Assembly (NCBI GenBank): GCA_030826765.1
Contig: JAUUDM010000015.1
Location: 1-40,444 of the forward strand
From: Nautiliales bacterium
GTDB taxonomy: Bacteria > Campylobacterota > Campylobacteria > Campylobacterales > JAADDX01
Direction of reading: 5' to 3'
Length of the DNA: 40,444 bases
Below the pieces are notes generated by a model, which had not been told where the DNA came from, did no database searches, and saw only the letters and a list, made by a program, of their open reading frames with translations. The position numbers and the translations under genes are program-made. Shown here one piece after another: positions 316 to 23,104 of the stretch (positions are counted from its first letter, which is position 1; each line of letters starts with the position of its first letter).

Positions 316-1035
316 TTAATACCAGATTCTTTCTAAATATAATCCATTAGGTTTTGCTAGATGTTTTGATATTAACTTTTTTTTATTTAACTGCATTTTT
401 AAATCTGTTAGAGTGAATTTATTTTCATTTATTTTAAGTAAAAAATCTACAATAATTCTAATTTGTCCTCTTAAAAATCCGTTACCTATTATTTTTATTA
501 TATAAAAATTTTTGTATTCAAATGCATATGCTTTATAAATTTCCCTTATATAATGATTTACATCACTTCCTGTCTTTGCAAAATATTCAAAATCATGCTT
601 ACCTTCTAAGATTTTTAAAGCGTTGTTAATTTTTTTTAAGTCTATTTCTTTTTCATAAAAAAGAGTATATTTTGCGTTAAAAGGAGTAAAATTTTTTGAA
701 ATAATATAGCGATAGCTTCTTTTTTTTGCTGAAAATCTTGGATGAAACTCGTTAGGAGCTTTTTGAATTTTTTTAAAATAGATAGATGGGTATAAAATTT
801 TATTTAAAAGAATTCTTAATTTTTCTAAATTCCAAAAATCAGGAATTTCAAATGATATTACCTGATTTAGTGCGTGAACTCCTCTATCTGTTCTTCCTGA
901 ATGATAAATTTTTGTTTTTATGTTAATTTTTTGAAGGGCTTTTAATATTTCTCCTTCTATAGTTTTTTTGTTAGGTTGAATTTGCATTCCATAAAATTCG
1001 CTTCCATCATAAGAGATAATTGCTTTAACTAAAAT
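316..1035 (-). CDS. truA: tRNA pseudouridine synthase A, probable ATT start
   Basis: TruA converts uridines 38-40 in the anticodon stem-loop of tRNAs to pseudouridine. The catalytic Asp lies in the family motif GRTDRGVHA (Asp50 from the start used here). The first ATG in frame, ending at 987, would give 223 residues and would cut off the conserved first strand. The frame continues upstream without a stop through ISYDGSEFYGMQIQP, which matches the usual TruA N-terminus, to an ATT at 1033-1035. That ATT is six bases downstream of AAAGGA. A stop codon lies two codons above it, and no ATG, GTG or TTG occurs in the extension. The product is then 239 residues, normal for the family. The start overlaps the end of the lptF-like gene by seven bases. 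An ATT start is an inference; a sequence error is the alternative. Confidence 0.9.
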   Translation of the reverse strand: MLVKAIISYDGSEFYGMQIQPNKKTIEGEILKALQKINIKTKIYHSGRTDRGVHALNQVISFEIPDFWNLEKLRILLNKILYPSIYFKKIQKAPNEFHPRFSAKKRSYRYIISKNFTPFNAKYTLFYEKEIDLKKINNALKILEGKHDFEYFAKTGSDVNHYIREIYKAYAFEYKNFYIIKIIGNGFLRGQIRIIVDFLLKINENKFTLTDLKMQLNKKKLISKHLAKPNGLYLERIWY

Positions 1036-20954: not shown

Positions 20955-22145
20955 ATGATAAAAACAAAAGAAGAATTTAAAGAATTAGTAGCAAGTATAG
21001 AGGATTTTGAAGGATATAAAAAGCCATTAGCTTTTGGTGTAGCAAGAGTTGATTTTGGTCAAATTAATACTGATAAAGTAATTCAAGCAGTATACCCATT
21101 AGTAAATTGGAATGAAAATTTCGGAAGTGGTGCCGTAATTATTAAAGCTTTAATAGAAAATGGAATTGCTGTTGATTTTAATGCAAGTGAAATAACAGCA
21201 ACTCTAAATGCTGATATTGTAAATGATGTTTTAGAAATGTTTAATCCATTTTTAGAAGAAGCAAAAGCTGATAAAAAAACACATAAAAATATTCAAGTAT
21301 TTTTAACTTTACAAGAACTTTTTGAAGAACATGAGTATAATAATTATAAAGTAACTATTCTTTTTAGTGATGATGCTCCAAAAAGTGTAGAAAGCGTATA
21401 TCTTAAACTTTATGCTTTATCTTTAGGAAAAGCAAAACTTAGAGGAATTAATTTAAATGGTGCATTTGGTGTTTTACCAAACTTAGCTTGGACTGGAAAT
21501 ATTCCTATTGAATTAGATTATTTAAGAGAAAATGAAATTGAGCTTAAACTTAGAGATGAATATCCTGAAATTGATTTTGTAGATAAATTCCCTAGATTCC
21601 TTCAACATATAATTCCTGCTGATAATACGAGAATTTTAGATACTTCAAAAGTTAGATTTGGAGCTCAACTTGCAGCTGGAACAACAGTTATGCCAGGGGC
21701 AAGTTATATTAACTTTAATGCTGGAACTGAAGGTGCCGTAATGGTAGAAGGTAGAATCTCTTCAAGTGCTGTTGTTAAAAAAGGTGCTGATGTTGGTGGT
21801 GGTGCTTCTATTTTAGGTGTATTATCTGGAACAAATGGAAATCCTGTAACAATTGGAGAAAACACTCTTCTTGGAGCAAACTCAGTAACTGGTATTCCTT
21901 TGGGTGATGGATGTATCGTAGATGCTGGAATAGCTGTTTTAGAAGGAACAAAAATCACTATTAGTGAAAAAGAAAGAGCAAAAATCAAAGAAGTAAATCC
22001 TGAATTTGATGATAGAAAAGAAGTTTATAAAGGACTTGAACTTGCAGGACTAAATGGAATTCATTATAGATTCAATACAACAACTGGAAAAATGGTTGCA
22101 TTTAGAAGTGTTAGAGAAGTTAAATTAAATGAAGAACTTCATTAA
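20955..22145 (+). CDS. dapD: Tetrahydrodipicolinate N-succinyltransferase
   Basis: DapD succinylates tetrahydrodipicolinate in the lysine and diaminopimelate pathway, feeding peptidoglycan. The 396-residue protein is of the long form found in Campylobacterota. An N-terminal alpha/beta part (1-225) is followed by a hexapeptide-repeat beta helix (about 230-350), including AAGTTVMPGASYINFNAG and VDVGGGASILGVLSG-like turns. The C-terminal part ends FRSVREVKLNEELH. The start follows AAGGAG seven to nine bases upstream. Confidence 0.93.
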   Translation: MIKTKEEFKELVASIEDFEGYKKPLAFGVARVDFGQINTDKVIQAVYPLVNWNENFGSGAVIIKALIENGIAVDFNASEITATLNADIVNDVLEMFNPFLEEAKADKKTHKNIQVFLTLQELFEEHEYNNYKVTILFSDDAPKSVESVYLKLYALSLGKAKLRGINLNGAFGVLPNLAWTGNIPIELDYLRENEIELKLRDEYPEIDFVDKFPRFLQHIIPADNTRILDTSKVRFGAQLAAGTTVMPGASYINFNAGTEGAVMVEGRISSSAVVKKGADVGGGASILGVLSGTNGNPVTIGENTLLGANSVTGIPLGDGCIVDAGIAVLEGTKITISEKERAKIKEVNPEFDDRKEVYKGLELAGLNGIHYRFNTTTGKMVAFRSVREVKLNEELH

Positions 22146-22150
22146 TTTGA

Positions 22151-22167
22151 TATAATTTACAAAAAGG
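22151..22167 (+). promoter_or_regulatory. -10 box and ribosome binding site of the RluA-family gene
   Basis: TATAAT at 22151-22156 in the context TTTGATATAATTT starts only five bases after the dapD stop. Transcription should begin near 22162, almost on the AAAAAGG ribosome binding site (22161-22167). The leader would be about a dozen bases long before the ATT codons at 22172 and 22175. The close coupling of promoter, site and coding frame supports an ATT start. Confidence 0.55.
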
Positions 22168-22174
22168 TTTTATT

Positions 22175-23104
22175 ATTAGATTAGATATTTATTTAAAAGA
22201 AGAAATTAGTTCAAGCAGGAATCAAATAACAAACTTAATTAAGAATGGTTTTGTAAAAGTAAACAATAAAACTATTACAAAACCATCTTTTAAAGTTAGT
22301 CCTAACGATAAAATAGAGTATGAATTTCAAACTCTAGAAGAGCCAAAAGAATATAAAGTTAACTTTGATATAGAAATTATTTATGAAGATAATGAAATTT
22401 TAGTAGTAAATAAACCTCCACATTTAGTAGTTCATCCAGCACCTAGTGTAAAAGAGGCTACTCTTGTGGATTGGTTAAAATCAAAAAATATTCGTCTTTC
22501 TACTATTTCAGGAGAAGAAAGACACGGAATAGTTCATAGAATTGATAAAGAAACAAGTGGTGCTTTAGTTATAGCTAAAACAAATGAAGCTCATCAATTT
22601 TTAAGTGAGCAATTAAGTGATAAAAGTATGGGAAGATATTATTTAGCTATAATTGATTTACCATTAAAAGAAGATACAGAAATTGATAAACCAATAGGTA
22701 GAAATCCTAAAAACAGATTAAAAAATTGTGTTATAAATAATGGTAAAACAGCTAAAACAAGATTTATAAAACTATGCAAAGAGAAAGAAGAATTAATTGC
22801 TTGTAAACTTTTTACAGGAAGAACTCATCAAATAAGAGTTCATTTAAATTCTATAAATAGACATATTATTGGAGATGAGCTGTATGGTGCGAAGGAGAGT
22901 TCGGATAGAATTTTGCTTCATGCTTATATATTATACCTAATACATCCAAAAACCAAAAAGTTAATGCAGTTTAAAGCACCACTTTTTGATGATATGAAAG
23001 AAAAAATAAATCAAATTTGCAAGGAAGAAACAGATGAAAAGCTTAATGAAAACTACATTATCGATAGGTTCACTAATTTTACTAATTACAGGTTGTACTC
23101 CTAA
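22175..23104 (+). CDS. rluD: RluA-family pseudouridine synthase with S4 domain, probable ATT start
   Basis: This family converts uridines of 23S rRNA (or tRNA) to pseudouridine. Read from ATT at 22175 it has 309 residues: an S4 RNA-binding domain (about 1-60, IRLDIYLKEEISSSRNQI), motif I (ILVVNKPPHLVVHPA), and the catalytic loop GIVHRIDKETSGALV with Asp124. GRTHQIRVHL is the next family motif. The frame upstream contains no ATG, GTG or TTG between an in-frame TGA and RLD. The first conventional start, GTG at 22466, would delete the S4 domain and motif I. The ATT at 22175 is seven bases after AAAAAGG. The 3' end overlaps the next gene by 71 bases. The RluD assignment within the family is by similarity of layout; RluC is possible. 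Confidence 0.85.
   Translation: MRLDIYLKEEISSSRNQITNLIKNGFVKVNNKTITKPSFKVSPNDKIEYEFQTLEEPKEYKVNFDIEIIYEDNEILVVNKPPHLVVHPAPSVKEATLVDWLKSKNIRLSTISGEERHGIVHRIDKETSGALVIAKTNEAHQFLSEQLSDKSMGRYYLAIIDLPLKEDTEIDKPIGRNPKNRLKNCVINNGKTAKTRFIKLCKEKEELIACKLFTGRTHQIRVHLNSINRHIIGDELYGAKESSDRILLHAYILYLIHPKTKKLMQFKAPLFDDMKEKINQICKEETDEKLNENYIIDRFTNFTNYRLYS

Follow-up and report, generated by a model that had tools for sequence, protein, structure and literature searches.

An RluA-family pseudouridine synthase gene of a Nautiliales bacterium is probably translated from an AUU codon

Results

RluA-family gene without a standard start codon

The window (the whole stretch of DNA analysed, contig JAUUDM010000015.1, 40,444 nt) contains a gene for an RluA-family pseudouridine synthase, referred to here as rluA. 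The gene and the elements around its 5' end are the following:

22148-22150, plus strand: in-frame TGA read in the sequence, upstream bound of the rluA frame
22151-22156, plus strand: TATAAT, -10 promoter box with exact consensus; the same box precedes an A-rich AAGG in many Nautiliaceae orthologues
22161-22167, plus strand: AAAAAGG, Shine-Dalgarno (SD) sequence, whose AAGG ends 7 nt before the ATT at 22175
22172-22174, plus strand: first ATT, the less likely start; spacing to AAGG 4 nt, rare in the genome
22175-22177, plus strand: second ATT, putative start codon; spacing to AAGG 7 nt; aligned with ATG of genomes G001 and G114
22175-23104, plus strand: RluA-family pseudouridine synthase gene, stop included (TIGR00005, E=8e-74); N-terminal 97 codons under purifying selection
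22466-22468, plus strand: GTG, first standard codon, 97 codons inside the gene; a default gene caller would pick this codon

The product matches TIGR00005 with 248.6 bits (cut-off 192.7), lies below the equivalog cut-offs of both RluD and RluC in the family-model search and carries the catalytic HRxD motif (HRIDKETSG, residues 122-130 of the frame counted from 22172). Judged by the family model and this motif, it is an RluA-family pseudouridine synthase.

Downstream of the TGA at 22148-22150, the frame reads TAT AAT TTA CAA AAA GGT TTT ATT(22172) ATT(22175) AGA TTA GAT, the last five codons encoding I-I-R-L-D. Reading of the sequence detected no ATG, GTG or TTG in frame between this TGA and the S4 domain. 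The initial annotation had claimed that no conventional start separates the TGA from RLD, that the S4 domain precedes the first GTG (22466) and that two ATT codons (22172 and 22175) follow AAAAAGG; all of this is borne out by the sequence.

A codon-usage survey was performed on the whole genome (1,512,028 bases in 47 contigs), in which 1,421 genes with closed 5' end were scored. The stretch that precedes any standard start has a higher coding score in rluA (S=30.6) than in all other genes surveyed. Its frame is open over 317 codons, and comparison of the N-terminal part with G001 gives pN/pS of 0.30, a value obtained with saturated synonymous sites. It is confirmed that the open frame does not occur by chance and that the absence of a standard start is real. 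Rescue by a single indel was also considered and rejected: ATG at 22129 and TTG at 22147, both located in another frame, run into TAA within 9 codons. Gene callers restricted to ATG, GTG and TTG cannot place starts of this kind and would cut 97 codons from rluA, for which the outcome is mainly a corrected gene model.

Start codon, SD sequence and promoter

Genome-wide, the distance between AAGG and start codon (about 920 AAGG motifs) peaks at 6-8 nt, with 281, 306 and 156 cases, respectively, and equals 4 nt in 8 cases. Because AAGG precedes the ATT at 22175 by 7 nt (306 cases in the genome) and the ATT at 22172 by 4 nt (8 cases), the former is the likelier start; the latter was rejected due to its short spacing. 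G001, which contains the nearest rluA orthologue (68% identity), and G114 both have ATG directly before RLD, aligned with 22175. ATT 22175 is thus most likely the start of rluA. The start region folds weakly (-0.9 kcal/mol).

In this genome, the commonest distance from the end of an exact TATAAT box to a start is 19-33 nt; the box of rluA ends 18 nt before ATT 22175. Transcription is predicted to begin approximately 7 nt past the -10 box, at 22162-22164, giving a leader of about 12 nt. This position falls inside the SD sequence, in agreement with the original proposal that the TATAAT box places the RNA start at the ribosome binding site. The arrangement of TATAAT followed by A-rich AAGG is kept in many Nautiliaceae rluA orthologues, and a short leader is an ordinary habit of the lineage. 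The designation of this RNA as "nearly leaderless" is consistent with the predicted length of about 12 nt, but not as an oddity, since such a leader is ordinary here and contains an SD sequence. For the same reasons, rluA mRNA was not classified as leaderless in the strict sense (leader under 10 nt, without SD). Leaders of Campylobacter jejuni average 30.6 nt (PMC3847290). Leaderless mRNAs of this species, a member of the same phylum, resemble rluA in having the -10 box close to the start; they differ in lacking SD and in beginning with ATG, whereas rluA RNA would combine SD with AUU (PMC3847290).

Start codons of rluA orthologues

A standard start is found within 30 codons of RLD in 80 of 80 rluA loci from GTDB, and 20 of the 21 Nautiliaceae orthologues possess a standard start as well. 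The exception is the orthologue of G074 (L279), whose sole standard codon lies upstream of a -10-like box and which contains ATA 7 nt after AAGG; its start is probably AUA. Among the orthologues compared, the ATT of rluA is private to the source genome, a lineage-specific change seen in one strain. An ATG or GTG at this position in a sister orthologue had been named at the outset as an observation that would speak against ATT. G001 indeed has ATG aligned with 22175; the ATT is therefore not conserved, which does not by itself make it false.

Recurrent ATT start of truA

The second pseudouridine synthase gene of the window is located on the opposite strand:

316-1035, minus strand: truA, with ATT at 1035-1033 as putative start, in overlap with the stop of lptG (1031-1029); ATT also in six further truA genes

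Its start region reads TAA AAA ATT TTA GTT AAA GCA on the minus strand, so that the reported likeness to rluA, with ATT at 1035-1033 in the context TAA AAA ATT TTA GTT, holds. In total, seven truA genes of six genomes have this ATT and lack a standard start upstream of the conserved YDG motif: the window gene, the copy on contig C8 of the same genome, and those of G001, G032, G112, G061 and G047. They belong to three separated clades of the truA tree. The C8 copy reaches its first standard start at codon 142. In genera g16 and g53, an ATG lies a few codons upstream in truA. Some of the assemblies with ATT consist of a single contig, e.g. G061 (1,676,444 bases).

In both rluA and truA, ATT behind a well-placed SD is the best candidate initiator. 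The two cases differ in that an AUU start conserved in relatives is found for truA and not for rluA. The recurrent AUU of truA is the stronger part of the observation, and it offers a naturally conserved system in which discrimination by IF3 can be tested, as can re-initiation where a stop overlaps the start.

Origin of the two genes

Part of the window has a second copy in the genome:

316-9943 of the window and C8:56026-67015: duplicated-block genes, i.e. truA, prepilin-peptidase-like, uppS, coaBC, glmU, motA, motB, fliP and trmA-like

About ten genes are duplicated here in syntenic order, with identities of 44-86%. The source genome belongs to family f1 together with G001, apart from Nautiliaceae (f15). 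The window truA is nevertheless 82-83% identical to that of G032 (Nautiliaceae), against 52-54% for the copies of C8 and G001; in the truA tree it groups with G032 and G112. Further, genes for tRNA-Gln and initiator-type tRNA-Met are located at 3-158 of the window, in the same order as beside truA in G112. The left block of the window is likely to have been transferred from a Nautiliaceae donor; a chimeric contig instead of transfer might also account for the duplication. Broad contamination was rejected as a cause, as few duplicated genes occur outside the C7/C8 block, and so was Nautiliales as the host, an assignment that fits the left block only. The nearest relative of rluA is that of G001. 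Since the truA block is of Nautiliaceae type, the two putative AUU starts of the window have different histories.

A further tRNA pair lies at C1:4032-4198, and the initiator-type gene of the window is thus the second one besides the C1 copy; having two initiator tRNA genes might influence how well weak starts are tolerated. Another duplicated pair of neighbouring genes was noticed at C10:1097-3755 and C28:130-2768 (79% and 57% identity). In G112, the truB match falls into two parts and contains an in-frame TGA (C1:1093730-1094192, minus strand), perhaps due to a frameshift or a broken gene.

Other non-standard starts in the genome

Two genes on contig C11 also lack a standard start over a considerable length; their names were read from the sequences by the analyst. 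The ftsK-like gene (C11:19140-21449, minus strand) has 66 codons without standard start, with the region AAAAAAGG ATTTATT ATA AAA AGA, and likely starts at ATA, 7 nt after AAGG. The flhA-like gene (C11:39118-41322, minus strand) has 59 such codons, with the region AAGG ATGAGAAA CTG, and likely starts at CTG, 8 nt after AAGG; its G001 counterpart has a standard start. A homology survey against partial G061 and G001 was noisy because leaders align through their SD sequences, and it was used only for flhA. Five non-standard starts were detected altogether with a survey sensitivity of approximately 53% of genes detectable, which suggests about 8 genes (0.5%) with such starts genome-wide. ATG is available as the start of infC in this genome.

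Discussion

We consider it probable that rluA is an intact gene translated from a lineage-specific AUU at 22175. The ancestral standard start, still ATG in the sister genome, would have been lost, and the gene would remain usable thanks to a well-placed SD and a nearly unstructured AU-rich leader. Transcription would probably begin about 7 nt past TATAAT, so that the SD stands at the head of a leader some 12 nt long. By positioning the 30S subunits, the SD would allow initiator tRNA to pair with AUU in spite of the third-base mismatch. Such initiation should be low and IF3-sensitive. The putative AUU of truA is a separate, recurrent case: as it overlaps the stop of lptG, ribosomes can probably re-initiate there in a coupled manner. 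The position of the RNA start, the use of AUU for initiation, its low output and dependence on IF3, and the coupling are all predicted from sequence.

It is unlikely that ATT 22175 reflects an error of consensus or sequencing and that the true codon is ATG or another standard start. The genome is a draft assembly of 47 contigs, the ATT is known from one assembly of a single strain, and the aligned codon of G001 is ATG, all of which would agree with an error. On the contrary, near-cognate starts in other genes of this genome, along with truA ATT in independent assemblies, including single-contig ones, suggest that such starts do occur in the clade.

The initial annotation left it open whether the starts of the two synthase genes coincide by chance or reflect a shared control, low-level or IF3-dependent, of RNA-modifying enzymes. 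Taken as a low-level, IF3-dependent control of pseudouridine synthases through near-cognate starts, it would comprise AUU in truA and rluA and, for the rluA orthologue of G074, probably AUA. A nominal excess exists: pseudouridine synthases account for three of the five non-standard starts detected in the genome, which with truA counted once gives a hypergeometric P of 1.7e-4 (8e-4 with sensitivity-corrected rate), a post hoc value that rests on two loci. The architectures differ, however, as truA, probably coupled to lptG, overlaps the stop of that gene, while rluA has its own promoter. Their origins differ too, with truA in a 10-kb block of Nautiliaceae type, to which native genes on C8 form a second copy, and rluA nearest to G001. 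Moreover, truB, truD and other readable RluA/RsuA-type genes of the genome have standard starts, and ftsK and flhA, which do not encode pseudouridine synthases, are also affected. A shared programme is thus possible but unproven, and we regard it as unlikely. If true, it would mean a new translational control of RNA modification, with pseudouridine synthases kept at low, IF3-sensitive output.

Exclusive synthesis of a shorter protein that starts at GTG 22466 and lacks motif I and the S4 domain is very unlikely. This GTG is the first standard codon and is preceded by GAGG at a distance of 8 nt; yet GAGG as well as GTG falls within codons for the conserved KEATLVDW stretch. The 97 codons that come before this GTG form an open, conserved frame with purifying selection acting on it, and a putative promoter and SD lie upstream of ATT. 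Decay of rluA after start-codon loss, which would fit the loss of the standard start in the source genome only, is hardly credible given the frame open over 317 codons, the intact -10 box and SD, and the lack of any paralogue above about 33% identity that could replace it.

AUU is a rare and weak start codon, established for only a small number of bacterial genes. Initiation at AUU is already known elsewhere, so that the starts proposed for rluA and truA would be further cases; no AUU start of truA or rlu genes was found in titles and abstracts of the open-access literature searched. The infC gene starts with AUU in Escherichia coli and ATC in Streptomyces, and discrimination by IF3 is documented (PMC5472188). 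Like rluA with its predicted start, infC is a translation-related gene with an AUU initiator and SD (PMC5472188). It differs in that its codon serves IF3 autoregulation and in that infC of the source genome has ATG available. As cited in PMC1780047 and PMC13009471, the AUU start of E. coli pcnB limits expression; like rluA, pcnB encodes an RNA-acting enzyme, with limited output established there by experiment and predicted here. In Staphylococcus aureus, cvfC1 starts at AUU and ccpN at AUA (PMC13009471). As in the window genes, these near-cognate starts stand behind good SD sequences, and they are conserved in the S. aureus case; they differ by an extended SD and ribosome profiling from the plain AAGG and sequence-based prediction of rluA (PMC13009471). 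Beyond the genes named above, a gene of unknown kind in G061 (172607-173485, minus strand, stretch L305) contains ATT preceded by AAGGAG, and its frame runs for 50 codons without a standard start.
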